DNA of 64,000 nt from Synechococcus sp. MW101C3 (GTDB lineage Bacteria > Cyanobacteriota > Cyanobacteriia > PCC-6307 > Cyanobiaceae), in assembly GCF_002252635.1 (NCBI RefSeq), contig NZ_NQKX01000003.1, positions 124,001 through 188,000 of the forward strand. The letters are read 5' to 3'. Every line of letters starts with the position of its first letter. Position 1 is the stretch's first letter. Under the pieces are notes generated by a model, which saw nothing but the letters and a program-made list of their open reading frames with translations, did not search any database and was not told the DNA's origin. This document shows positions 8,898 through 22,211 of this stretch, in pieces. Made by a program: the position numbers and the translations under genes.

Positions 8898-10493
8898 TCA
8901 GAACCGGAAGGTGGTTTTCACCAGGCCACCCAATTGGTTGAAGGTCTCGCCGGAGGGGGTGTCCTGGCCCAGGGGCCGGCTGAGATAGAAGAGGGCGGGC
9001 GTCACGGAGATGTTGTCGCTCACCTGGAACTTGTACCACCACTCCCACACGACATTGCCGTCGTTGGGGTAATCGCTGCCTTCGAGGGCCGTGGCGAAGA
9101 CCGGCTGGCCCACGGCCATGCCGAGGGCGTTCCCTTTCACGAACACATCGCTCCACTCCAGCCCCACCATCCACGACTGACTGGTGCGCACATCGCCATC
9201 CACCTCCTGGCCGTCGTACGACGTGGAGTTGATGCCCCAGCCGGCACTGATCGAGGGCAGCCAGCCGGAGCCGGCGGGTTGCCAGTAGCCGCTGAGGCCG
9301 ATGGCATTGGTGCTGCTGCTGGGGTTCTCGAAGGCGAGGGCGGTGATGGGCGTGGTGCCGGGCACCCCCACCCCTGACTGGATATAGCTGTAGATCGCAG
9401 CCACGGCCCATTGCTCCTGCGCGTAACCGATCTGCACGGTGCCGGTACCGGCGCTGGCGCTGGTGCCGATGCCGCCCTCGCTCGGATTGCCGCCGTTGCC
9501 GTTGGCGGCCACGTAGTTGGCGCTCACACTGAAGCCATCGTTCTGCCACCAGAGGCCGGCGCCGGGGCCGAGGTTCTTGTTGTAAGCCGCCGGTGCACCG
9601 TTGAGGGTGAGCACGTTCAGGATCGTGTCGCTGGGGTACACGCTCGGCCACAGAGCGAGCATGTCTTCCTGACCGACGCGGCCACCGAGGGTGGCGGTGA
9701 AGCCGCTGCCGAGCGGGAATTGATAGAAGAGCTTGTCGATCGCCACCACATCGCCGCAGTCGGCGTTGTCGCCGCAATCCTCCTGGAACGCCACTTCCAG
9801 GGTGGAGAGGCCGCCGGTGGGGCCGGCGCCGCCGAAGGCGCTGTCGGCGAAATTGCCGGCCCGCAGGATCGTGCGCAACAGATCCTTGCCGCTGAAGCTG
9901 GTGTCGAAGCTGAGCTGGAGGTCGTAGTTGAAGGTGGTGGCGCCCACCTCCTGGCGGACCGCCCCTCTTGGAGCACTGCCGCCGAAGGCATTCGCCCCGA
10001 GCACGAAGGTGGCCTGGCCGCTCAGCTTGGTGGTGGTGGAGAACTGGCTGGCTTCCAGCTCGCCGACTTTGGCTTCGAGGCCATCAACCCGGCCCTTGAG
10101 CACGGCCAGTTCAGCATCGAATTCCTTGAGCAGGCGGCGCAGCTCGTCGGTCACCTCGGTGATGCGATCGAGGCAGGCATTGAGCAGGGCGGCGGCTTCC
10201 CAGCGGCTGAGGGCCTGCTTGCCGCGAAAAGTGCCGTCGGGGTAGCCGGCGACGCAGCCGTAGCGCTCGATCAGGTTGGAGAGCGCCTGGTAGGCCCACT
10301 CGGTGGGCTGAACATCAGAAAACTGATTGATGCTGGTGACCTGATCGGCGCTGAGGCCATCGGCGGCCTGGCCAGCGGCATAGCGCTGGATGCCCTCCAG
10401 GTTGAGCTCCGCCGCGCTGGCGCCAACGGGGGCCAGCGGCGCCAGCAGAGAGAGGGCGCCAGGAACGATCAGGCGAAGCAGAGGCTGGGTCAT
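8898..10493 (-). CDS. SLH-type outer-membrane porin (SOM / iron-uptake porin family)
   Basis: A 531-residue outer-membrane protein. A signal peptide ends near ASA (residues 1-27). An SLH domain at about 56-110 (FSDVQPTEWAYQAL, GYPDGTFRGKQALSRWEAAA) would hold the peptidoglycan. A coiled coil at about 115-155 precedes an OprB-like beta-barrel ending in the aromatic VKTTFRF, typical of proteins handled by the BAM machinery. Cyanobacterial SOM porins pass small solutes and inorganic ions. The Fur/Zur-like palindrome at 10527-10541 suggests this paralogue is metal-regulated. It is a single-gene unit. Confidence 0.9.
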   Translation of the reverse strand: MTQPLLRLIVPGALSLLAPLAPVGASAAELNLEGIQRYAAGQAADGLSADQVTSINQFSDVQPTEWAYQALSNLIERYGCVAGYPDGTFRGKQALSRWEAAALLNACLDRITEVTDELRRLLKEFDAELAVLKGRVDGLEAKVGELEASQFSTTTKLSGQATFVLGANAFGGSAPRGAVRQEVGATTFNYDLQLSFDTSFSGKDLLRTILRAGNFADSAFGGAGPTGGLSTLEVAFQEDCGDNADCGDVVAIDKLFYQFPLGSGFTATLGGRVGQEDMLALWPSVYPSDTILNVLTLNGAPAAYNKNLGPGAGLWWQNDGFSVSANYVAANGNGGNPSEGGIGTSASAGTGTVQIGYAQEQWAVAAIYSYIQSGVGVPGTTPITALAFENPSSSTNAIGLSGYWQPAGSGWLPSISAGWGINSTSYDGQEVDGDVRTSQSWMVGLEWSDVFVKGNALGMAVGQPVFATALEGSDYPNDGNVVWEWWYKFQVSDNISVTPALFYLSRPLGQDTPSGETFNQLGGLVKTTFRF

Positions 10494-10526
10494 GGAGGGC
10501 TGGGGGCAAGGTGAATGATGCGAAAA

Positions 10527-10541
10527 AGATAATCGTTATCA
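10527..10541. promoter_or_regulatory. Fur/Zur-type operator upstream of the porin
   Basis: AGATAATCGTTATCA is a 7-1-7 inverted repeat with one imperfect pair in each arm. It closely matches the TGATAATNATTATCA type bound by cyanobacterial Zur and Fur proteins. It lies 34 bp before the porin ATG on the minus strand. Whether Zur or Fur binds cannot be told from sequence alone. Confidence 0.7.
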
Positions 10542-10860: not shown

Positions 10861-11107
10861 GGGGCATCAGGGCCAATGGAGACAGATTGTGCGGGCTGAG
10901 GAGCGGATGGCATCCCCCGGGCACAGAGCCGGGTGTCTTTGGTGACAGGCTCCGCTGGCGTCAGTGCCAAGACCGGCAGGCCTGCGGCCACTGGCCCTTT
11001 GTGCTGGATGCGGAACCCGGTGCCAACCATCACACCGGTGGGTGGCCAATGGGCCCTGCGCTGCAAGGCAGCCGGGGGACAGTGCCGACAGCTGTCAGCC
11101 GCAGACC

Positions 11108-12160
11108 ATGACGCACATCCAGCTCCGGTGTCGCCGCCTCGCTCTGAGCCTGCCGCTTTGGCTGGGCCTCACCCTGAGTGCCTGCAGCATTCCCAGCACC
11201 AACTCCGTCACAGCTGTGCCGACGGATCAGGCGGTTCCGACAGAACAGGCAGTGGTGACGTCCTTCGTGGAGACGGTGGTCACGCCCAACTATGCGCAGC
11301 TCGTGAAGCAGACAGCTGCTCTGCAGGACGCCATCCGGCTCCTCACGGACAAACCCACCGAGGCCCATCTCCAGTCGACCCGCCAGGCCTGGCTGGCGGC
11401 CCGCCAGACCTGGGAAACCAGCGAGAGCTGGGCATTCGGCCCCGCCGCCACGGAGGGTTTCGACGGGGCCATGGACGACTGGCCGGTGAACCGCAAGGAC
11501 CTCGCGACTGCTCTGAGCAGTGGACGCTTCAGCCCCGAAACCTTCGCCACGCTCAGTGAAACCGCCAAGGGGTTCCACGGCATCGAATGGGTGATCTACG
11601 GCGGGCGAACCGGCAGCCCTCCCAGTGCAGAGCAACTGAGCGCCAACGAACTCGTCTACCTGGGTCTGGCGGCCGCTGATCTTCACAACCAGGCGGAAGG
11701 ACTGCTGGCCAGCTGGTCGGAGCCGCAGGGCTTCGGGGCACGGATCAGCAGTCCTGGCGAAGCCGGCGCAGCGGTGCAGGAGATGCTGCAGGGAGTGATC
11801 GGCCTGCTCCAGGAGGGGGGCGATGAAAAGCTTGGCCAACCACTCAACACACGCGATCCCCACACCCTGGAAAGTGCCGCCAGCGGCAACACCCGAGCGG
11901 ATCTGGTGGCCAACGTGGAAGGAGCCCGGCGGGTGCTACTGGCTACAGGGCTGCTTGGCCTGATCCGCGGGCGCGATCTGGAGCTGGCCAGCCAGATCGA
12001 CGCCCAGAGCGCCGCCGCGGTGGCGATGGCCAAGGCCCTGCCCCAGCCGCTCAACGACGCCCTCGCTGATCCCTCCTCCCGTCAGGCGATGCAGCAGCTG
12101 ATCACCCAGCTGCACAGCACCGCAAAACTGCTGGAACGGTCGGCACACCTACTGTCCTGA
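11108..12160 (+). CDS. imelysin-family lipoprotein (M75), iron-associated
   Basis: A 350-residue exported lipoprotein with its lipobox Cys at 26 (LTLSAC). The imelysin domain carries the family motif GxHxxE as GFHGIEW near residue 158 and paired four-helix bundles. Imelysins (IrpA, EfeO/EfeM relatives) act in periplasmic iron uptake or sensing and are not shown to be peptidases. ATG 11108 gives a clean lipoprotein signal. The stop overlaps the start of the di-haem gene (TGATG), so the two are translationally coupled, a partnership often seen for this family. Confidence 0.87.
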   Translation: MTHIQLRCRRLALSLPLWLGLTLSACSIPSTNSVTAVPTDQAVPTEQAVVTSFVETVVTPNYAQLVKQTAALQDAIRLLTDKPTEAHLQSTRQAWLAARQTWETSESWAFGPAATEGFDGAMDDWPVNRKDLATALSSGRFSPETFATLSETAKGFHGIEWVIYGGRTGSPPSAEQLSANELVYLGLAAADLHNQAEGLLASWSEPQGFGARISSPGEAGAAVQEMLQGVIGLLQEGGDEKLGQPLNTRDPHTLESAASGNTRADLVANVEGARRVLLATGLLGLIRGRDLELASQIDAQSAAAVAMAKALPQPLNDALADPSSRQAMQQLITQLHSTAKLLERSAHLLS

Positions 12161-13497
12161 TGGCTCGCCACTGTTGCAAGAGGCCGCCGATGTGGCGGTT
12201 GGTGCTGCCAATGATGCTGGGCCTGCTGGCCTTGCTGGTGGTGCTGGCCATCCGGCTGCAACCCAAGGTGGCGGCGACTGATCCGCAGCGGGCCGCCGGA
12301 GTGATGACGGTGGCCAACCGCACATCGGCTTCCTTTGAGCAACCGGCCGCCGGCCTCAGCCCCGCCGAACTCGACCGCCATCTGATCTCCGATGTGCTGT
12401 TCGATCGCACCCATGTGCCTCTGGCCGGATCCCCCGGTGCTGGCCTGGGCCCCCGGTTCAATGCCGCCTCCTGCATCGCCTGCCATGTGCGCAACGGCCG
12501 CGGCCGACCGCTGATGGGAGAAGCGTTGGTGCGGGTGGCCCTTCCGGATGGCCGGCCCGTGCCGGGCCTCGGTCATCAGGTGAGGGACCGGGCGGTGTTG
12601 GGCTGGCGGCCCGATGCGGCTGTACAGGTGGAATGGCAAGCGCAGGGGGGCCTGCGGCGGCCGTTGGTGCACCTCAAAGGGCCGGAAGGCGTTGATCTGG
12701 CGGCCGCCAGCGTGGCCCGCTCCTTACGTGTGGCGCCGCCGCTGATCGGCATGGGTCTGCTGGAGGCAGTGCCGGAGACGGTGATCCTGGGCCGCGCCGA
12801 TGCCGACGACGACGATGGCGACGGCATTTCCGGCCGTCCCCACTGGTTGGTGGCTGACTCCGGTCAGCGGCGGCTGGGACGCTTCGGCTGGAAGGCCCTG
12901 GCAGCTTCCGTGCGCGAGCAGACCACCGCCGCCTTTCTCAATGACATGGGCCTGACCACAGCGGTCGCGCCTGGCTCCGGCAAGGCTGCCGCTGGGCAAG
13001 CGGCTGATATCAGCGACAAGGAGCTGACCCTGGTGACCTTCTACAGCCAGACCCTGGGAGCGCCTCGCACCGCCCTGCCGGCCTCCAGCCGAGTGGTGCG
13101 GCGGGGGCAGGAGCTGTTCGACTCGCTGCAATGCGCCAGCTGCCACGTGCCCCAGCTGATCACCGGCCGCTCTCCGCAGGCGGTGGCGCAGGTGCTGCAA
13201 GGCCAGACGATCTGGCCCTATACGGATCTACTGCTCCACGACCTGGGCCCCGGCCTTGATGACGGGGTAGCGGAGCAGGGGGCGGCAGGGAGCGAATGGC
13301 GCACCGCGCCGCTCTGGGGGTTGGGCCTGACGCAGCGGGTGAACGCCTCGGCCGGTTTCCTCCACGACGGTCGGGCCCGCACGCTTGAAGAAGCGATCCT
13401 GTGGCATGGAGGGGAAGCAGAAACCTCGCGGTTGCGCTACGAACAGCTGTCCGTGCAGGCTCGCCGAGAACTGCTGGCCTGGTTGGCGCAGTTGTGA
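12160..13497 (+). CDS. di-haem oxidoreductase family protein (DUF1111)
   Basis: 445 residues with an N-terminal membrane anchor or signal (about 11-31). Two c-type haem sites are present, CIACH at 105-109 and CASCH at 325-329, in the arrangement of the thiol oxidoreductase / DUF1111 family related to di-haem peroxidases. An Asp-rich loop (DADDDDGDG) resembles a calcium-binding site. Coupling to imelysin suggests electron transfer linked to iron handling in the periplasm, which is inference. The natural substrate is unknown. Confidence 0.85.
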   Translation: MARHCCKRPPMWRLVLPMMLGLLALLVVLAIRLQPKVAATDPQRAAGVMTVANRTSASFEQPAAGLSPAELDRHLISDVLFDRTHVPLAGSPGAGLGPRFNAASCIACHVRNGRGRPLMGEALVRVALPDGRPVPGLGHQVRDRAVLGWRPDAAVQVEWQAQGGLRRPLVHLKGPEGVDLAAASVARSLRVAPPLIGMGLLEAVPETVILGRADADDDDGDGISGRPHWLVADSGQRRLGRFGWKALAASVREQTTAAFLNDMGLTTAVAPGSGKAAAGQAADISDKELTLVTFYSQTLGAPRTALPASSRVVRRGQELFDSLQCASCHVPQLITGRSPQAVAQVLQGQTIWPYTDLLLHDLGPGLDDGVAEQGAAGSEWRTAPLWGLGLTQRVNASAGFLHDGRARTLEEAILWHGGEAETSRLRYEQLSVQARRELLAWLAQL

Positions 13498-13571: not shown

Positions 13572-14015
13572 TCAGGAAGCGTCGTGGCGGGCCTGGCAGC
13601 TGGGGCAGATGCCGAAGAACTCCAGGGTGTGGAACAGCAGCCGGAAGCCGTCCAGCTGCTGGGGTTGCAGGTGGACGTCGTGCATGGGGCAGGCCCGCAG
13701 CGGCAGGGTGCGGCCGCAATCGACGCAGGTGAGATGGTGCTCGTCCCGTTCGGTGGGGGCGTAGAGGGCTTCGCCACTGGGCAGATGGCGGCAACGAACC
13801 AGCCCGCGCTGCTGCAGCTGGCGCAGGTGCCGGTACACCGTGGCCAGGCCCATGCCATGGGGCGTGCCGCGCAGCCGGGCATGCAGGTCCTGGCCGGAAA
13901 GCTCGTGGCCGGCGGCCTGCAGCTGATCGAGCAGATGGCTCTGTTTGGCGTTGAGCGGGCTCTGCTTCAGCGGGCTCTCGTTCTGCGAAACAGGAACGGC
14001 TGCCTCGGAAGCCAT
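13572..14015 (-). CDS. zur: Fur-family metalloregulator, probably Zur
   Basis: A 147-residue regulator. The N-terminal winged helix includes MGLATVYRHLRQLQQRGLV. The structural zinc site is given by CVDC near residue 97 and CPSC near 137. It is divergently transcribed from znuA, with a 15-bp palindrome in the shared intergenic region. Context therefore favours Zur over Fur or PerR, although the metal preference cannot be read directly. It would repress the znu genes when zinc is plentiful and probably other operons around it. Confidence 0.83.
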   Translation of the reverse strand: MASEAAVPVSQNESPLKQSPLNAKQSHLLDQLQAAGHELSGQDLHARLRGTPHGMGLATVYRHLRQLQQRGLVRCRHLPSGEALYAPTERDEHHLTCVDCGRTLPLRACPMHDVHLQPQQLDGFRLLFHTLEFFGICPSCQARHDAS

Positions 14016-14123
14016 GGCCAGGACGACAGCGGGTCAACGCCGATCCTATGGAGCGCCGTGAGAGGGCGGCGCCTGCGCGGCGGCGATGCAGAGGCCGAGG
14101 CACAGGCGAAGGCCATACCTAAA

Positions 14124-14138
14124 TGAGTACGATTCTCA
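14124..14138. promoter_or_regulatory. Zur-type operator between zur and znuA
   Basis: TGAGTACGATTCTCA is an imperfect 7-1-7 inverted repeat, close to the TGAGAATNATTCTCA form of Fur/Zur boxes. It lies 53 bp before the chosen znuA ATG and 109 bp from the zur start, a natural place to control both directions. Confidence 0.65.
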
Positions 14139-14190
14139 ATTCGACCCCTCGCCGCTTCGGTGCCGGGATCCCCGCTCTCCTCTGCCTGCC

Positions 14191-15231
14191 ATGCGTCTCC
14201 TTCTGCGCCGTGCGGCGGTACTGGCTTCTGCGGCCCTGCTGGTCGCCTGCGGCCAGACCGCCCAGAATCCGGCGGCCAGCAACGGCACCGACCTGCAGGT
14301 GGTCACCACCTTCCTGCCGATCACCGGATTCACCAAGGCGGTGGCGGGCGACTGCGCCACGGTGCAGGCACTGGTTCCCACCAGTGTTGGACCCCACGAC
14401 TTCCAGGCCACCCCATCGGATCTGGTGAAACTGCAGAAGGCCGACGTGCTGGTGAAGAACGGCCTGGGTCTGGAGTCGTTCCTCGACAAGCTGATCGCCA
14501 GCGCCGACAACCCCACGCTGCGCGTGATCGACACCAGCAGCGGCGTGGCGACCCTGGCCAATGCGGACGAGAAGGCCGCGGAGAAAGGCGGTGGTGAGCA
14601 CGGGCATGACCATGGCCACGACCATGGAAGTGATCCCGCTGGCGAGGCGGGGAAAAGCCAGGAGGCGGCCAAAGAGCACGACCAGGGGCATGATCACGGC
14701 CACGAGCACGGCCCGATCAACCCCCACATCTGGCTCGATCCGCTGCGGGCCGTCCAGCAGGTGGAAACGATCCGGGATGGCCTGATCGCCGCCAAGCCCG
14801 CCTGCAAGGAGCAGTTCAGGGCCAACGCCACCAGCTTCACCGCCGAGCTGCAGGCACTGAATGCCGAGCTCGCCGCCCAGCTCAAGCCCTTCGCCGGCAA
14901 GACCTTCGTGGCCTTCCACGACTTCGCCCCCTACTTCGCCGAGCGCTACAAGCTCAAGACCGCCTTCGTGGTGGAGGCGCCCGAGCAGAACCCCACCCCG
15001 GCCGATCTGCAACGGGTGGCCGAGCAGGTGAAGCAGTCCGATCTCAAGGCCCTGCTCTCCGAGCCGCAGGAAGGCAGCCGCTCGTTCAACGCCCTCGCCG
15101 GCGACCTCGGTGTGCGGGTGAGCGTGTTCGATCCGCTCGAAACCGGTCCGGCCGAGGGCGAAAACCCCGGCTACTACACCGTGCAGATGCGCCGCAACGT
15201 GTCGGATCTGGTCAAGGCCTTCGGCAAGTGA
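14191..15231 (+). CDS. znuA: zinc ABC transporter substrate-binding lipoprotein ZnuA
   Basis: 346 residues, lipobox Cys20 (LLVAC). The fold has two cluster A-I lobes. A His/Asp-rich loop at about 136-175, repeating HGHDH, is the hallmark of zinc-specific ZnuA proteins. Conserved His residues follow in NPHIWLDP and VAFHDFAPY. It captures Zn2+ in the periplasm and passes it to ZnuB. ATG 14191 was preferred to the upstream in-frame codons because it gives the lipoprotein signal and leaves the operator outside the gene. First gene of znuA-znuC-znuB. Confidence 0.93.
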   Translation: MRLLLRRAAVLASAALLVACGQTAQNPAASNGTDLQVVTTFLPITGFTKAVAGDCATVQALVPTSVGPHDFQATPSDLVKLQKADVLVKNGLGLESFLDKLIASADNPTLRVIDTSSGVATLANADEKAAEKGGGEHGHDHGHDHGSDPAGEAGKSQEAAKEHDQGHDHGHEHGPINPHIWLDPLRAVQQVETIRDGLIAAKPACKEQFRANATSFTAELQALNAELAAQLKPFAGKTFVAFHDFAPYFAERYKLKTAFVVEAPEQNPTPADLQRVAEQVKQSDLKALLSEPQEGSRSFNALAGDLGVRVSVFDPLETGPAEGENPGYYTVQMRRNVSDLVKAFGK

Positions 15232-15342: not shown

Positions 15343-16110
15343 ATGGCGGAAATGGTTCTCGAAGTCAGCGACCTCACGGTGCGGCGCGAGGGCACGACAG
15401 CCGTGGAGGGGGTGAGCTTCACCCTGGCGGCGGAAACCGACACGGCGCTGGTGGGTCCCAACGGGGCCGGCAAGAGCACCCTGGTGCAGGCGCTGCTGGG
15501 CATCCTGCCGCGCCAGAGCGGCCAGGTGCGGCTACTGGGTCGGCCGATGGGCCCCCAGGGCCAGCTGCCCGCTTCGGTGCGGGCCCAGGTGGCTTATCTG
15601 CCCCAGTCCTTCACCGTCCGCTACCGCTGCCCCCTCAGCGTGGCCGACTTCGTGGGCCTCGGCTGGGATCCGCCCGGGCTGCAGTTGCCCTGGCGCGGCG
15701 GTGAGCGGCGGCGGCAGGCGGTGCGCCAGGCGCTGGCGAAAACCGGCTGCGGCGACCTGGCCGACCGACTGATCAGCGAGCTCTCCGGCGGCCAGACCAA
15801 GCGCGTGCTGCTGGCCTTCTGCGTGGTGCGGCCCCGGCGCCTGCTGGTGCTTGATGAGGCCCAGGCCGGCCTCGACAGCCAGGCGGCGGAGCAGTTCTAC
15901 GGCCTGCTGTTCGACCTGCGCCGCAGCGAAGGCTGGACGATCCTGCAGGTGTCGCACGACCTTGAGATGGTGCGGCGCACCTGCGATGGCGTGCTGTGCC
16001 TGAACCGCAGCCTGCGCTGCTCCGGCCCCCCCGATCACGCCCTCAGTCCCGCCCAGCTGGAGCGGGTCTACGGCCGGGGGTATGTGCCCTACCACCATCA
16101 CCACCGATGA
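15343..16110 (+). CDS. znuC: zinc ABC transporter ATP-binding protein ZnuC
   Basis: A 255-residue ATPase. Walker A GPNGAGKST is near residue 39, the Q-loop lies in AYLPQSFT, the ABC signature is LSGGQTKR near 146, and Walker B LLVLDEAQ is near 168. Walker B carries Glu-Ala where many ATPases have Glu-Pro. It powers ZnuB. The gene starts 111 bp after znuA and its TGA overlaps the znuB ATG (ATGA). Confidence 0.92.
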   Translation: MAEMVLEVSDLTVRREGTTAVEGVSFTLAAETDTALVGPNGAGKSTLVQALLGILPRQSGQVRLLGRPMGPQGQLPASVRAQVAYLPQSFTVRYRCPLSVADFVGLGWDPPGLQLPWRGGERRRQAVRQALAKTGCGDLADRLISELSGGQTKRVLLAFCVVRPRRLLVLDEAQAGLDSQAAEQFYGLLFDLRRSEGWTILQVSHDLEMVRRTCDGVLCLNRSLRCSGPPDHALSPAQLERVYGRGYVPYHHHHR

Positions 16111-16934
16111 ACGACGGCGTGGCCCTGGCCGAGCTGCTGGCCCTGCCCTTCATGCAGCGTGCCCTGATCGGCGGCCTGCTCACCGGCGCCCTGGGCGGCC
16201 TGCTGGGCAGTTTCGCGGTGCTGCGTCAGCTCTCCTTCTTCAGCGATGCGCTCGGCCATTCGGCCCTGCTCGGCATCACCCTCGGCATCCTGCTGGGCCT
16301 CAACCCCACCTTGGTGCTGATTCCCTTCGCGGTGCTGTTCGCCCTGGTGGTGAGCCGCCTGGTGGAACGCAGCCAGCTGCCCACCGATGCCCTGCTCAAC
16401 ATCGTTTATTCGTCGTCACTGGCGATCGCCGTGGTGGCGCTCAGTTTCGTGCGCAGCTACAAGGGCGGCATCCATCAGCTGCTCTTCGGCGACATCCTCG
16501 GCATCTCCTGGCTCGACCTGGGGCTGATCGTGGCCCTGCTGCTGACTGCCGTGGGCTACCTGGGCCTCACCCGCCGCGACCAAATCCTGCTCACGCTCGA
16601 TGAGCCGCTGGCGCTCTCGCGTGGGGTGGCAGTACCGCTGCACCGGCTCCTTTTCATCGTGCTGCTGGCGGTGGTGGTGGCGATCTCGATCAAGGCGGTG
16701 GGGGTGCTGCTGATCAGCGCCTTCGTGGTGATCCCCGCCTGTGCCTCCCGGCTGGTGAGTGTTCAGTTCAATGTCTACGTGGCGCTGGCCGCTGGCCTTG
16801 GCGCCATCTGCGCCGTGCTGGGCCTGCTGCTCTCCGGCAGCCTGAACCTGCCGTCAGGTCCCTGCGTGGTGCTGATGCAGCTGGTGGGCTTCCTGATGGC
16901 CCTGGCGCTGGCCCCACGGCAACGGCTGGCCTGA
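16107..16934 (+). CDS. znuB: zinc ABC transporter permease ZnuB
   Basis: A 275-residue permease of the ABC-3 family with about eight or nine transmembrane helices. The coupling region GHSALLGITLGI and the late-helix segment KAVGVLLISAFVVIPA are typical of ZnuB/MntB proteins. The start ATG 16107 overlaps znuC by 4 nt, indicating coupled translation. Zinc rather than manganese is inferred from the His-rich ZnuA and the Zur gene. Confidence 0.92.
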   Translation: MNDGVALAELLALPFMQRALIGGLLTGALGGLLGSFAVLRQLSFFSDALGHSALLGITLGILLGLNPTLVLIPFAVLFALVVSRLVERSQLPTDALLNIVYSSSLAIAVVALSFVRSYKGGIHQLLFGDILGISWLDLGLIVALLLTAVGYLGLTRRDQILLTLDEPLALSRGVAVPLHRLLFIVLLAVVVAISIKAVGVLLISAFVVIPACASRLVSVQFNVYVALAAGLGAICAVLGLLLSGSLNLPSGPCVVLMQLVGFLMALALAPRQRLA

Positions 16935-16951: not shown

Positions 16952-18316
16952 TCAGCCGGCTGGCAGCCACTGGGCCTGGCGCACCGGCTTGTCGATCAAG
17001 GTGAGCTCGAGGCTGAACGGATCGATCAGGGCGGGCTGGGCCTCACGGCGCTGGAGCGGGCCGCCGGCAGGGGTGTCGAGCTCCAGGCGGCGCAGGGTGA
17101 GCAGCAACCGTTCGCCGGTGGGGTCGTAGTGGAGGCCGGTGCCCGGCTCCAGCTCCCAGCCGCTCAGCACTCGGCGTTGCAGCACCGCGCCGTTGCGATC
17201 GAGGGCCAGCAGGATCAGCCGCGGCTCAGCGATGCCCTCGATCAGCAGCGCCCACACCCGTTCGCCGCCACGGGAGCAGGCGCTGGCCACCAGCCCGGCG
17301 CTGCCGATCCAGAGCGGCCGCGGTGCCTGCCCCGGCTCCACCAGCTCCAGCGAGCGCCGGAAATCGGGCCAGTGCCGCACCAGCAGCGCCCGCCCCGCCA
17401 CCGGGCAGAAGCTGCTGAGGTCGCGGCTGCCGGGCAGGATCTGGCGGCGTGGTTCCCGCGGCGGCAGGGTGCGCAGCGACAGCCCCTCCCGCTCCGGCAC
17501 GATCAGCTCACCGCCGCCGGGCAGCAGCGCCACCGGTCCACTGGCCTCGATCTCGAGACGTCGCCGGCCGCCGCCGCGGAACCACTGCACCAGATCTTCC
17601 GGCCCCTGGGTCATGGCCGTGGATTGCACCAGCAGATCGCCCTGCCGGTTGCTGCTCAGCTGGGCGTACTGCAGCGCCTCGCGTGTGAAGCGATCGATGC
17701 CCGTCTGTCGCACCCGGCCCAGATCGGGCCGCAGCGGTGCGTCCATGGCGGCCACCCGCGCCAGGTTGCGCTCCTGCAGGTTGAGGCGCCACACCTGGTG
17801 ACGCCCCTGGTCGTCCCGGCTCACGATCCCCAAGCCGGAGCCATCGCCCAGCGGCTCGATCTCGGTAATCGAGCTCCACACCGGAGACAGTGCCGTCCAA
17901 CCACCATCGTGCTGCCGCACCTGCACCTGCTCACCGCTGCCCACCGGCACCACCGCCAGCAGATGGGCGCGCGGATCCCATTGCCAGAGGGCCGGACGCA
18001 TCGGCAGGCCACGACGGTCGTCGCCCTGCAGCTGCAGCCGCAACGGGGTGACCAGCCGCTGCCCTTGGCCCGGCAGCAGCAGCAACGGGTTGCCACCGCC
18101 CTGCAGATCGAAGCGCAGCGGCGGCTCCAGGCGGGTGCGGGCCGCCACGCTGCCGGGATTCATCGGCCGGCTGAAGCGCAGGTTCAGGGCCGCCGGGCCG
18201 GAGCTGGCCGCCGCCTGCTCCAGCGCCAGCAGCCGCGGCGGCCGATGGAGCAGCACCTGCTGCTGGGCGACGGCCAGCAGCACACCAGCCAGCAGGGCCA
18301 GGCGCAGGGCCCTCAT
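16952..18316 (-). CDS. exported protein with SbsA-like N-terminus and propeller-like repeats, function unknown
   Basis: A 454-residue protein with a hydrophobic N-terminal signal (1-18). A short Ig-like segment follows at about 45-100 (LNLRFSRPMNPGSV), which resembles the SbsA/Big_5 type. The remainder is repeated beta-blade-like stretches (for example VWSSITEIEPLGDGSGLGIVSRD), suggesting a WD40/TolB-like propeller. It is the last gene of the four-gene operon with QueD-like, permease and TIGR03943 genes, overlapping the latter by 4 nt. The operon position implies a role tied to that metal-linked permease. I know no named family for it. Confidence 0.6.
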   Translation of the reverse strand: MRALRLALLAGVLLAVAQQQVLLHRPPRLLALEQAAASSGPAALNLRFSRPMNPGSVAARTRLEPPLRFDLQGGGNPLLLLPGQGQRLVTPLRLQLQGDDRRGLPMRPALWQWDPRAHLLAVVPVGSGEQVQVRQHDGGWTALSPVWSSITEIEPLGDGSGLGIVSRDDQGRHQVWRLNLQERNLARVAAMDAPLRPDLGRVRQTGIDRFTREALQYAQLSSNRQGDLLVQSTAMTQGPEDLVQWFRGGGRRRLEIEASGPVALLPGGGELIVPEREGLSLRTLPPREPRRQILPGSRDLSSFCPVAGRALLVRHWPDFRRSLELVEPGQAPRPLWIGSAGLVASACSRGGERVWALLIEGIAEPRLILLALDRNGAVLQRRVLSGWELEPGTGLHYDPTGERLLLTLRRLELDTPAGGPLQRREAQPALIDPFSLELTLIDKPVRQAQWLPAG

Positions 18317-19008
18317 GGTTCGAGCGGCCGCGCCGGCCGGGGGATCGGTCGCACCGACTCCGCGCGGATCACGCTGCGGGTCTGGCCGTCAAAGCGTTCG
18401 GTGTCCATCACGCCGCGCAGCTCCAGCCACTGATCGGCCTTTGGCAGCGGCCGGCCCGGGGGCCACAGCACCGGCAGCCCCACCGGCGTGGCATCCACCA
18501 GGCAGCAGCGCACCAGCAGGCGAGCCAGCTGGGGACGGTCCCCGGGCACGGGCAGCACGAAGCCGCTGATCCGCACCGGATCACCCGCATGCAGCTTCGG
18601 GTCGGGCTGGCTGCGCAGCAGGCGCACCCACTCGGTGAGGCTGCGCTGGCCCGGCGGCACCACGAAATTCAGGCCCGGCTCATCGAGCAGTTCGCGGTCG
18701 CGGTTGGCGGCGAGATCGGCGAACGAGGGCCGCGGTGGCACCAGCAGGACCGCGATCGCCACCACCACGCCCACCAGCAGCACGGTGCGTTGCCGCGGCG
18801 TGGGGGCGGCGCCACCCCCTCCCACCAGCTCCAGCAGCGCCACGACCACCAGCACCACGCCGCTGATCCACACCAACGGATGGAACACGGCCCTCAGCAG
18901 CAGATCCAGCCGGCCGCTGATGCCGCTCTGGAGCAGCACGGCCCCCCACAGCCCCAGGCCGAGGGGCCGCAACCAGCGGCCGCCGCGCAGACGTCGGGGG
19001 AGTGTCAC
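18313..19008 (-). CDS. TIGR03943 family membrane protein (partner of PF03773 permease)
   Basis: 231 residues. Two hydrophobic helices lie in the first 90 residues, with a soluble domain after them that contains VRISGFVLP, RCCLVDATPVGLPV and WLELRGVM. This is the layout of TIGR03943 (YcgQ-like) proteins, which are almost always encoded beside a PF03773 permease. GTG 19008 was chosen because it overlaps the permease stop by 4 nt (GTGA) and begins directly before the first helix. The stop also overlaps the next gene by 4 nt. Transport or assembly of a metal-related substrate is suspected but unproven. Confidence 0.8.
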   Translation of the reverse strand: MTLPRRLRGGRWLRPLGLGLWGAVLLQSGISGRLDLLLRAVFHPLVWISGVVLVVVALLELVGGGGAAPTPRQRTVLLVGVVVAIAVLLVPPRPSFADLAANRDRELLDEPGLNFVVPPGQRSLTEWVRLLRSQPDPKLHAGDPVRISGFVLPVPGDRPQLARLLVRCCLVDATPVGLPVLWPPGRPLPKADQWLELRGVMDTERFDGQTRSVIRAESVRPIPRPARPLEP

Positions 19009-19982
19009 AGCAGCCACAGGTTCACCCACTGACCGATCAGCAGCACGACCAGCACGGCGCTGACGGCCGTGAGCAGGATGGCGCGCGGACGCAGCAACAC
19101 GCCGAACAGCCCCACCAGCTTGATATCGATCACGGGCCCAAGCAACAGGAAAGCCAGCAGGGCACCCGGGGTGACCTGGGCCGCGAAGCCCAGGGCCAGG
19201 AAGGCATCCACGCTGGAGCACACCGACACCACCAGGCTCAGCAGCATCAGGGCCAGGATCGAGAGGGTGGGGGCCCCACCCACCGCCAGCAGCCAGGGCC
19301 GCGGCACCAGCGTCTGCACGAGGGCGGCGATCACGCAGCCGAACACCAGCAGGGCCGCCAGCTCGATGAACTCCCGGCTGCCATGGCCCAGGATTTCCGC
19401 CAGCGGAGCGCGGGGCGTGCGGCGTGGAGCAGCCGCCAGGGCCTGGGCCGCCAGCGGGTCAGCACCGATCACCCCGCTGCGGCGCTCCAGCAGGCTGACC
19501 TGGCTGAGCGGCAGGACCAGCTGCCGTTCCTCCAGCAGCGCCGGCTGCAGCAGCGCCGCCTCCGGCAGGCGGGCCAGCAGGGTGGCGAGCACGAGCGCGA
19601 TCAGCACCGCCCCCACGGGCCGGGCCACCAGCAGCCAGGGCTGGTTGGGGAAGGCGGCCCAGGTGCTGGCCACCACGATCGGGTTGAGCACCGGTGCCGC
19701 GAACAGGAAACCGAGCGCCGTGGCCAGCGGCGCCCCGGTGGCCAGCAGCTGACGCGCCACCGGCACATTGCCGCATTCACAGGCAGGCAGGGCAAAGCCG
19801 AGCGCGGCACCGGTGAGCGGCCCCAGCAATGGATGGGCTGGCAGGCGCCGCACCCATTGCCCGCCCGGGCTGAGCCAGCGGGCCAGGGTGGAGATGGTGA
19901 CCCCGATCAACAGAAACGGCATCGCCTCGATCAGCAGGGCCTGAAACAGGGCCCAGGCCGTGGCCAGACGTTCGGGGCTCAC
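19005..19982 (-). CDS. PF03773 (ArsP/YraQ-like) permease
   Basis: A 325-residue membrane protein with two blocks of four to five helices. Each block has the family's short motif: ALPACECGNVP in the first and SVCSSVDAF in the second. The Cys residues in these motifs are conserved in the family. PF03773 includes the methylarsenite exporter ArsP, but the branch paired with TIGR03943 has no settled substrate. It is the second gene of the operon, overlapping both neighbours by 4 nt, and lies next to znuABC. Confidence 0.85.
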   Translation of the reverse strand: MSPERLATAWALFQALLIEAMPFLLIGVTISTLARWLSPGGQWVRRLPAHPLLGPLTGAALGFALPACECGNVPVARQLLATGAPLATALGFLFAAPVLNPIVVASTWAAFPNQPWLLVARPVGAVLIALVLATLLARLPEAALLQPALLEERQLVLPLSQVSLLERRSGVIGADPLAAQALAAAPRRTPRAPLAEILGHGSREFIELAALLVFGCVIAALVQTLVPRPWLLAVGGAPTLSILALMLLSLVVSVCSSVDAFLALGFAAQVTPGALLAFLLLGPVIDIKLVGLFGVLLRPRAILLTAVSAVLVVLLIGQWVNLWLL

Positions 19983-20446
19983 AGGACCGGCTGAAACCAG
20001 GTGGGAACGGCCTCATAGCAGGCGGCGTTCTTTTCGTTCTCGCGGGCCTCAACCTTCCAGCAACAGGCGCGGCCGCCATCGCGCGCCAGCAGCAGCTCGT
20101 TCGCCCACCCCCACACCAGCTCGGCGCTGCTTTCCATGCCCACGTTGTCCATCACACGCAGGTCGAGGGCGCCCTGGCTGTGCAGCGCCTGCCACTGGGG
20201 CAGCAGTGGGTCGTCGGCATTCACCAGGAAGGTGTGATCGAACTGAACGGCCAGCCTCGCCTCAAGCGGCTGCAGGGAGGAGAAATCCACCACGAAACCG
20301 TTGGCATCCAGCTGGGTGGCCCGGAACCACACGGTGAAGCTGCGGCTGTAGCCGTGCACGAAACGGCAGTGGCCGGGATGGCGCCACTGGCGATGGCAGC
20401 AGGGGTAGCCGCTGAACCGTTTGGAGCAGGTGTGGGCCGCGGTCAT
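19979..20446 (-). CDS. QueD-like 6-pyruvoyl/6-carboxy tetrahydropterin synthase homologue
   Basis: A 155-residue T-fold enzyme. Cys27 and His31 ([12 protein letters not shown]) fall where QueD has its catalytic Cys and a zinc-binding His. The usual HGH reads HGY here, so Tyr33 replaces one zinc ligand. Other His and Cys residues nearby ([11 protein letters not shown]) may complete the site. [17 protein letters not shown] and the late Glu region match the family. It leads the operon with the PF03773 permease. Classical QueD serves queuosine synthesis, but the altered ligand set and zinc-gene context suggest a specialised paralogue. Confidence 0.78.
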
Positions 20447-20535: not shown

Positions 20536-21282
20536 ATGGAGGAACGCCATGCTGCCGCTGCGCCGCCCACAGCGGCCGGTGGCGGGCCAGCCACTCAGAT
20601 CGAAGCGCCCCTGGTGGAGCCGGCCTGGATCGATCAGCTGCGTTTCGATGCCGCCGGCCTGATTCCGGCCGTGGCCCAGGACTGGCTGGATGGGGCGGTG
20701 CTGATGGTGGCCTGGATGAACCGGGAAGCGATCACGCGCAGCCTGGCCAGCGGCGAGGTGCACTACTGGAGCCGTTCCCGCCAGGAGCTGTGGCACAAGG
20801 GAGCCACCAGCGGCCACTTCCAGACACTGCGCGGCCTCCGCTACGACTGCGACGCCGACGTGCTGCTGCTGACGATCGAGCAGAAGGGCGGGGTGGCGTG
20901 CCACACCGGGGCGCGCAGCTGCTTCTTTGCCGACGGCGAGCCGCACGCGCAGGCGGCGGCGCCGGCTGTGGCGCTGCCGCCGCCGGCCGATGCCTGCACC
21001 GAGCTGGCACGGGTGATCGTGGCGCGGCGCGAGCAGCCGGAAGCGGGCAGCTACACCAACAAGCTGCTGGAGGGGGGCGATAACCGCATCCTCAAGAAGA
21101 TCGGCGAGGAAAGCGCTGAATTCGTGATGGCCTGCAAGGACGACGATGCCGCCGGCATCGCCGGCGAAGCCGCCGACCTGATCTTTCACCTGCAGGTGGC
21201 GCTGGCCCATCACGGGGTCGAATGGCGCCGGGTGCTGGAGGTGCTGGCCGAACGGCGGGGGGCGCCCCGGCGTCACGGCTGA
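20536..21282 (+). CDS. hisIE: bifunctional HisIE: phosphoribosyl-AMP cyclohydrolase / phosphoribosyl-ATP pyrophosphatase
   Basis: 248 residues catalysing steps two and three of histidine synthesis. The N-terminal HisI domain (about 30-140) has VLMVAWMN, the zinc-binding Asp/Cys cluster DCDADVLL and [13 protein letters not shown]. The C-terminal HisE domain (about 155-248) has [19 protein letters not shown] and [12 protein letters not shown]. The start ATG 20536 was selected because it follows the divergent queD gene and precedes the first conserved block by a short tail. The 3' end overlaps the opposing metallopeptidase gene by 10 nt. Confidence 0.95.
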
Positions 21283-22211
21283 ACGGGGACCGGCGCGGCA
21301 GCCGGTGCAGGCAGCGGCTGGCCGAAACGGCTGGGCTGGGCCTGCAGCCAGCGCAGGGTGTCCCGATCCCGGGCCGTGAGCGCCACCACTGGCTGGCGGC
21401 CGGGCACCGCCGCCAGGGCATCGGCCGGATCGTCGCTGTGACCCCAGAGGCCGAAGGCATGGCCCAGCTCGTGCAGGGCGGTGGCCTGAATGGCCAGCTG
21501 ACGCTGCCCCGGGCTGATCAGCACCTCCACCCGCGGCTCCAGCCGCCAGCGACCGGCCCGCTGCACCTCCAGCACCTGCAGCGAGGCGCGCCCGTGGCTG
21601 GCACGCAGGCGCCCGCCCAGCTCCCGCAGCGGCGGCCGCTGACGCCGCACCAGCACCTGCGCCTGCGCCGGATCCGTCACCCGCACAATCACCAGCTCCT
21701 CCGCCCAGCTGGCCAGCGCCGCGTTCACCGCCTGCTGCCAGCGACTCTCCAGGGACGCCGCCGCAGCGGGGGCAATCGCTCCAGAGGCAGCGGCAGGCTC
21801 CACCCAGACGCACCAGCGCGCCAGGCGCGCCCAACCGGCGGGCGTGGGCGTCAGCCGGTGGCTGTAGCCCACTGGGGGCTGCGCGGAGAGGGAGGAAGCT
21901 GCTGGATCAGGTGGGGGCTGAACGGCCTGCAGGCCGGCGGCTGTGTCCATACCGCCAGTGGCGGCTGGGCCGGTCCGCCATGGCCGTGCGGCTAGCGCCG
22001 GTGGGCAATCGGTGCTGGGATCCAGGGCAGCAGGCGCCGGGCCCCGGCCTGAAACCTCGCCCACTTGAACTGGAGGGAGATACACCCGCGCTGCCCTCCA
22101 CGACCCCGAATCCGGGAGGGGAAGAGCGGTGACCTGGCCGGCTGGCCAGACCAGGCAAGCAGCGAGCGCCTGGACCAGGAAGCGCCGCAGCCGGCAGGGC
22201 CGAAGCCGCAC
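21273..22211 (-). CDS. exported matrixin-like zinc metallopeptidase
   Basis: 312 residues. A signal peptide spans about 10-29. A low-complexity Pro/Ala linker leads to a catalytic domain with [12 protein letters not shown] near residue 247, the HExxHxxGxxH zinc site of metzincins (matrixin M10-like). Acidic residues follow directly (SDDPADAL). It would act outside the cytoplasm on unknown proteins. The gene ends inside the hisIE tail and starts 257 bp from no divergent partner; the DUF2214 gene follows 12 bp downstream on the same strand. Confidence 0.78.

Follow-up and report, generated by a model that had tools for sequence, protein, structure and literature searches.

Several systems related to the one described here are known. 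Pairs of genes encoding a PF03773 permease and a TIGR03943 protein extend well beyond cyanobacteria and matter for fitness in Streptococcus, their function being given as unknown (PMC5584981, excerpts). Growth under Zn or Cu stress depends on SO_0444, a relative of the permease (PMC3219624, excerpts), and Cd and Cu cause strong induction of a gene of the SO_0444 family in Nitratiruptor (PMC10092412, excerpts). Finally, AztD is a periplasmic beta-propeller that works with a zinc ATP-binding cassette (ABC) transporter and in which the ligands, several His and one Asp, are conserved (PMC6689063, excerpts). Here, we analyzed a stretch of 64,000 nucleotides of Synechococcus sp. MW101C3 (hereafter the window; genome of 3.03 Mb, nearest named relatives Synechococcus/Cyanobium), in which genes of these PF03773 and TIGR03943 families are directly followed by a third gene that encodes a predicted beta-propeller protein of 454 aa. 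Our results indicate that this protein is very probably a dedicated partner of the PF03773/TIGR03943 system.

The locus consists of four genes on the minus strand (20446-16952). A QueD-like/PTPS paralogue of 155 aa (19979-20446; PF01242, E = 1.1e-23) is followed by a PF03773 (ArsP_1) permease of 325 aa (19005-19982; PF03773, E = 1.7e-54), a TIGR03943/DUF1980 subunit of 231 aa (18313-19008; TIGR03943 and DUF1980_C matches) and the propeller protein (16952-18316; fold modeled with AlphaFold2). The start of the TIGR03943 gene was taken as the GTG at 19008; the mechanical open reading frame is longer (302 aa from 19221). The open reading frames and the sequence confirmed the earlier note on this locus, which had described three junctions overlapping by exactly 4 nt: ATGA (19982-19979), GTGA (19008-19005) and ATGA (18316-18313). 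Its family labels were also recovered, with matches to PF01242, PF03773 and TIGR03943, and the 454-aa protein remained without a match in Pfam and in NCBIfam (E ≤ 1). A simple scan found no promoter-like site within the operon, where none was expected, and, within the permease gene, a single terminator-like site, as many as chance would give.

We then surveyed the co-occurrence of these genes across 386 genomes of the phylum. A single-protein query with the window's propeller matched 66 genomes, 31 of which belong to the window's family (f1), and a profile built from 45 propeller relatives extended this list to 157 genomes (E ≤ 1e-6). TIGR03943 matched 158 genomes, 157 of them over the cut-off. 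The two sets are identical except for one genome with a weak TIGR03943 match (G096; E = 9.8e-5). The permease profile (E ≤ 1e-40) was found in 156 genomes, all included in the 157, with G326 alone lacking it. None of the 157 genomes possessed the permease and TIGR03943 without the propeller. All three genes were jointly absent from G175 (genus g8), G181 (g9) and G274 (g11), and the other listed members of these genera carry all three (G270, G304 and G314 in g8; G330 in g9; G239, G322 and G364 in g11). In addition, the second TIGR03943 copy of G172 has its own adjacent propeller.

The order of the genes is also conserved among close relatives. We gathered 31 f1 loci and 80 loci of named relatives through propeller matches; the two sets share genomes (e.g., L057 and L183), and their counts are not additive. 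A search with TIGR03943 returned the same 31 f1 genomes. The permease, TIGR03943 and propeller genes are consecutive in 31/31 f1 loci and in 77/80 named loci, the exceptions being two loci that begin inside the propeller gene (L221 and L234) and one with its TIGR03943 frame in two pieces (L226). Absence of the propeller from the same operon in relatives, which the earlier note had named as grounds for abandoning its proposal, was not observed. The 4-nt overlap between TIGR03943 and the propeller is kept in 29/31 f1 genomes and in 70/78 named loci where both frames were found; since it recurs across both sets, these overlaps represent more than chance. The overlap between the permease and TIGR03943 is less constant (12/31 f1 genomes and 60/78 named loci). 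Together, the co-occurrence and the conserved order support the proposal of the earlier note that the 454-aa protein may be exported and form a hitherto undescribed part of the PF03773/TIGR03943 system.

Beyond f1, we analyzed 80 class-wide loci hand-picked for breadth from the 126 non-f1 genomes with TIGR03943. This selection left out nine genomes already fetched through the propeller, and three of the loci stop at contig ends (L087, L108 and L133). TIGR03943 is followed by the propeller within 400 bp in 45 of these loci and within 3 kb in 51, the permease lies at most 400 bp upstream in 60, and both partners are found within 400 bp in 38. No 4-nt overlap was found by script in these loci (0/61 and 0/51 junctions). 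Propellers that are not adjacent sit elsewhere in the same genome. In a tree of 108 propeller copies, displaced copies fall among adjacent ones ("adjacent" meaning within 3 kb), with 14 label changes of which at least 6 are forced; this tree was built quickly, with no bootstrap, and includes 11 of the 31 f1 rows. This scattering suggests repeated relocation of the gene without its loss. Two loci carry tandem propeller genes (L297:6572-9601 and L298:5371-8516), the two members belonging to separate clades, one of which is shared with second copies from other families. The operon is also present in L174, a contig of a metagenome-assembled genome titled Bifidobacterium breve, a title that looks wrong.

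The AlphaFold2 model of the 454-aa protein (68 sequences; mean predicted local distance difference test score, pLDDT, of 93.9; predicted template modeling score of 0.90) presents a membrane helix (residues ~2-24), an immunoglobulin-like (Ig-like) domain (~29-108) and a beta-propeller (~110-454) with about seven blades, as counted from the strands. The protein is predicted to be periplasmic and held by its single N-terminal helix. The best Foldseek matches in the Protein Data Bank (PDB) are lactonase-type propellers and TolB. In VIA-align, the propeller of an S9 peptidase gave Z = 22.4 (root-mean-square deviation, rmsd, 3.1; 287 aligned residues), and Z was similar for many unrelated propellers; this fold is common and reveals no function. 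The earlier label of the protein as "SbsA/propeller-like" agrees with the predicted fold and with the domains of its relatives: 24 of the 45 relatives match Big_5 (PF13205) at E ≤ 0.1 (best 7.5e-9) and nine match PD40 at the same threshold, Big_5 being without a match in the window's propeller itself at E ≤ 1. The propellers of L155 and L156 are 91% and 90% identical to the window's. Because a very long branch joins the f1 propellers to the rest, homology between f1 and non-f1 propellers is based on single-sequence E-values down to 4e-12, shared position and shared domain order. As far as our literature and database searches went, this protein is undescribed; no third component is named in the titles and opening lines of abstracts of the papers found to mention TIGR03943, COG3689, DUF1980, YcgQ or COG0701.

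The TIGR03943 subunit of the window passes the equivalog cut-off (154.3 bits against 88.8). Its AlphaFold2 model (pLDDT 84.4) shows three membrane helices and a C-terminal domain closest to OB folds (VIA Z 9.0; rmsd 3.2; 93 aligned residues); Foldseek returned no match for this model at E ≤ 0.001, and profile searches of the PDB with TIGR03943 and with the permease returned nothing at E ≤ 1. Within the OB-like domain, the residues of the motif C168-C169-x-x-D172 are invariant in 53 sequences. The CC-x-x-D motif is present in 120/120 cyanobacterial TIGR03943 proteins, and among eight non-cyanobacterial ones the second Cys and the Asp are found in 8/8 and the first Cys in 6/8. The permease, which is the sole PF03773 match of its genome, passes the gathering cut-off (185.4 bits against 32.3; residues 6-317). 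C68-E-C70 and C255 are invariant in 42 sequences, and the CEC motif is kept in 100/100 cyanobacterial permeases and in 8/8 others, whose aligned stretches ended early and did not cover later columns. Thiol pairs on both partners would be expected for a soft-metal pathway, and they could possibly form disulfides. Positive-inside reasoning by eye suggests that both the OB-like domain and the propeller would face the periplasm.

From the observed families, gene order and co-occurrence, and from the predicted folds, we infer a topology, a complex, a substrate and a direction of transport. The genes at 19982-16952 would encode one inner-membrane transport complex in which the PF03773 permease forms the pathway. 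TIGR03943 would be the partner of the permease, its three membrane helices carrying the OB-like domain with vicinal cysteines into the periplasm. The 454-aa protein would use its N-terminal helix to anchor the Ig-like domain and the propeller above the partners, as a docking or gating platform. The substrate would most likely be a soft divalent metal, zinc first, that leaves the cytoplasm. We give an even chance to this interpretation as a whole, that of a three-part complex with a propeller subunit moving such a metal out; we lean toward export as the direction, and taken separately a zinc-type metal as substrate falls slightly short of an even chance. A more elaborate version, in which a cyanobacterial three-part machine exports zinc or a similar metal, the propeller gates or docks the permease, the metal is handed to ZnuA in a periplasmic recycling loop and the whole is wired to Zur and ZnuABC in picocyanobacteria, appears rather unlikely.

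The argument for zinc comes from the neighborhood. The gene at 13572-14015 (minus strand) is, by its sequence, the zinc uptake regulator Zur: its best PDB match is 7NE9, the Zur of Synechococcus WH8102 and a demonstrated zinc sensor (E = 2e-47; next match 6.3e-16). On the plus strand, it is followed by a znuA-like substrate-binding protein (14086-15231; PF01297, E = 1.6e-73; mechanical start, the real one being probably further in), a znuC-like ATPase (15343-16110; PF00005, E = 2.3e-26; MntA/AztA-type NCBIfam matches under their cut-offs) and a znuB-like permease (15996-16934; PF00950, E = 9.7e-55; mechanical start) that converges with the propeller gene, with 17 bp between the stops. These znu labels designate homologues and do not imply zinc specificity. 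When up to 4 kb after the propeller and up to 6 kb before the permease were considered, a zur/znu-like gene was found in 30/31 f1 loci (all but L063) and in 74/80 named loci; these are raw counts, uncorrected for a random-gene baseline. Their arrangement varies. A co-directional znuC follows the propeller within 100 bp in L026, L029-L031 and L072, zur is the first zinc gene downstream and co-directional in 8/31 f1 loci (within 150 bp in four), and znuA converges with the propeller in 11/31. Outside f1, a plasmid of Acaryochloris marina MBIC10699 (pREC2, 277147-294517; L281) carries a propeller copy preceded at 111 bp by a Zur gene (E = 2.2e-27 to its best match, 7NE9); this zur-propeller pair occurs with genes for a threonyl-tRNA synthetase (thrS), a CobW GTPase, DnaG, an M28 peptidase and metal ABC components, and the island looks like a plasmid-borne low-zinc kit. 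Overall, zinc linkage is strong in f1 and, with this plasmid as a striking exception, nearly vanishes elsewhere. The hint of zinc raised by the earlier note is upheld for the identity of the neighboring regulator and for the linkage within f1, and it is weakened by the rarity of this linkage elsewhere and by the scan finding no Zur box before the operon, which leaves zinc as a putative substrate.

Several observations weigh against the metal-export interpretation. A zur-like gene was found in only one of the 80 class-wide TIGR03943 loci (L148) and, in a search of 35 chromosomal loci with displaced or second copies for zur, znu, cobW or thrS, in one (L290, ~4.6 kb away); five of these 35 loci gave weak matches to znuC-type ABC genes. 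Clustering of the neighbors of the class-wide loci neither showed nor excluded a recurring metal gene, the largest clusters being judged from the first residues of one representative. In positions 1-26000 of the window, no Zur box with at least 11 of the 13 consensus positions was found upstream of queD by a scan that also passed over a weaker site seen by eye before znuA and that leaves room for promoters inside genes; Zur regulation of the operon was rejected on this basis. The model of the SO_0444 transporters (NF033936) gives the window's permease 79 bits, under the cut-off of 300, and by its sequence this permease is not an SO_0444 equivalog. Only one His or Cys column reaches 50% in the alignment of 45 propellers, a Cys (62%) that is an Ala in the window. 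The f1 propeller is strongly diverged, with 15-20% identity between the window and the rest and a branch of ~10 changes per column in the quick tree. The partners are not paired one-to-one: G170 combines four TIGR03943 matches with a single propeller, and several genomes show the converse, two or three propellers for a single TIGR03943 match. A Calothrix plasmid carries TIGR03943 with neither partner within ~5 kb, and the Acaryochloris plasmid carries the propeller with neither partner within 8 kb. Finally, B. subtilis ycgR/ycgQ are controlled by envelope-stress extracytoplasmic function (ECF) sigma factors, and the fitness of streptococci is affected by scfAB, whose function is described as unknown (PMC5584981, excerpts); we counted these data against a metal because they fit an envelope role equally well. 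The main rival holds that the same three-part complex serves envelope homeostasis by exporting a lipid, a cell-wall compound or a redox compound, and that the zinc neighbors of f1 represent inherited synteny. It gains from the scarcity of zinc genes outside f1, from the scan finding no Zur box before the operon and from the Firmicute relatives, which the same excerpts tie to envelope stress, acid stress and biofilm. However, the zinc linkage persists through rearrangements in f1, with znuC downstream, zur within 150 bp downstream, or znuA or znuB convergent; the zur-propeller pair of Acaryochloris with its cobW, thrS and metal ABC genes and the role of SO_0444 under Zn or Cu stress also speak against this rival. 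We consider an envelope role a real possibility, one with well below an even chance.

The remaining alternatives question the role of the propeller itself. It could be an AztD-like metallochaperone that delivers zinc to ZnuA and does no more than share the operon of the permease. AztD is indeed among the Foldseek matches of the model (6n01; rank 41, E = 8.1e-6, TMq 0.41, 12% identity), a beta-propeller fold is predicted by AlphaFold2 and recovered with Foldseek and VIA, znu genes adjoin, and C304 and C347 show no variation in 68 f1 propellers, with 99% conservation of H315. However, many other propellers match equally well or better, and when we looked for the His/Asp ligands of AztD by alignment rather than superposition, no His column reached 50% across the 45 relatives, with H315 alone retained in f1. 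The family also accompanies the permease and TIGR03943, nearly all of its non-f1 loci having no zur/znu neighbors. An AztD-like chaperone was rejected on its lack of the conserved ligands, and we regard this reading as highly improbable. Alternatively, the co-occurrence might reflect only shared descent in conservative genomes, the three proteins not cooperating at all. The 20 listed genomes out of the 229 without the set are all f1 and 17 of them are under 2.0 Mb, which one or a few losses could explain, and shared descent does account for part of the pattern. Against descent alone stand the joint absences from single species of three otherwise positive genera, the contiguity across many families, the 4-nt overlap conserved in f1, the retention of the propeller after separation and the second TIGR03943-propeller pair of G172; we consider this explanation very unlikely.

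The QueD-like gene does not appear to belong to the unit. The paralogue in the operon scores 39.3 bits with the QueD model (TIGR03367), under the cut-off of 89.25, and its genome contains three PTPS matches, of which two share a single frame at another place (G000 contig C13, 18352-19164). The zinc site of QueD is marked by the motif CxxxHGH. In an alignment with 3jyg, the paralogue presents HGY in place of HGH (CRFVHGY versus CRHLHGH). A QueD-like gene lies directly upstream of the permease in 3/31 f1 loci, within 3 kb in five more and directly upstream in 35/80 named relatives; the 80 class-wide loci of other families yielded none. Because this adjacency is limited to part of f1, we rejected QueD as a general functional partner, contrary to its inclusion in the operon by the earlier note, and the gene is best seen as a neighbor of this lineage only.

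Several other features were noted, some of them possibly related to zinc. A Zur-box-like palindrome (TGAGTACGATTCTCA, 14124-14138), identified by eye between zur and znuA, falls under the threshold of our scan; in L155 and L156, a site near znuA scores 12/13 to the core of the published Zur consensus, and further Zur-box-like sites lie 200-430 bp beyond zur. One match was found in L067 ~250 bp before the permease frame, also right beside a divergent gene. In the window, a Zur-box-like site (10525-10537; 11/13) precedes by ~30 bp a gene for an SLH/OprB porin (8898-10493; PF04966, E = 1.1e-13; PF00395, E = 3e-8), a candidate zinc-regulated porin. Between the porin and zur, an imelysin gene (PF09375) is directly followed by a gene for a di-haem peroxidase-like protein (PF06537) at 10964-13497, possibly a metal-related pair. 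The protein encoded at 21273-22211 weakly resembles matrixin-type metalloproteases (PF00413, E = 0.0011, under the cut-off). In other loci, the gene downstream of znuA encodes a His/Gly-rich N-terminal stretch (L021:10509-11906 and L069:7759-8913; similar in L022, L024, L031 and L073), and the L021 copy weakly matches an outer-membrane barrel (PF24653, E = 3e-6). In a zur mutant of Synechococcus WH8102, synw0968-0973 were derepressed in strand-specific libraries and synw0973 was called uncharacterized (PMC9337993, excerpts). By position, the gene downstream of znuA would fit the Zur-regulated, uncharacterized synw0972, which makes it a candidate zinc-related outer-membrane protein. The gene after it is often the convergent propeller gene in related marine loci, with an extra gene there in L021, and synw0973 could be the propeller gene, which we offer as a lead. 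The excerpts of a study of Synechocystis Zur contain nothing on these genes (PMC12058595).

We extended the comparison to other phyla with a collection of plasmids, which constituted our entire search outside cyanobacteria. The PF03773/TIGR03943 system was found in 25 non-cyanobacterial records, from which seven loci were hand-chosen (Priestia, Pontibacillus, Enterococcus, Nocardia and Pseudalkalibacillus; a small plasmid-only sample). The permease is directly upstream of TIGR03943 in 7/7, and a profile search for the propeller returned no match in these loci (E ≤ 1e-3); in the whole collection, the propeller was found in one record, which is cyanobacterial. The propeller would be a subunit of cyanobacteria that is missing from the two-gene version in the examined Firmicute and Nocardia loci. 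On the Pseudalkalibacillus plasmid, a CobW-type GTPase gene lies ~0.8 kb before the permease. The putative third subunit, all-or-none in 157 cyanobacterial genomes and predicted to be a largely soluble periplasmic protein, constitutes a handle on this kind of transporter. Marine Synechococcus live at very low zinc (PMC9337993, excerpts), and the propeller system may supply a missing part of their zinc handling.

In conclusion, the locus resembles several known systems and differs from each. It presents the same two families side by side as YcgR-YcgQ of Bacillus subtilis and ScfA-ScfB of group A Streptococcus, and unlike the seven non-cyanobacterial loci of this kind, none of which gave a propeller match, it includes the propeller. 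It shares a related PF03773 permease with the Cu/Zn efflux transporter SO_0444, from which it is set apart by the low score of this permease and by its TIGR03943 and propeller partners, neither of which is named for SO_0444 in the excerpts of PMC3219624. As in AztABCD, a propeller, here predicted to be periplasmic, is found near a zinc-type ABC transporter; in contrast to AztD, the window's family is without conserved His ligands, includes a membrane helix and an Ig-like domain, and is accompanied by a PF03773 permease. TolB, a periplasmic propeller protein among the best Foldseek matches, was rejected as a relative, the likeness being one of fold and no model of NCBIfam or Pfam being matched at E ≤ 1, and the membrane helix and Ig-like domain are extra parts of the window's protein. 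What is new here is a probable propeller subunit added to a known, uncharacterised kind of transporter.

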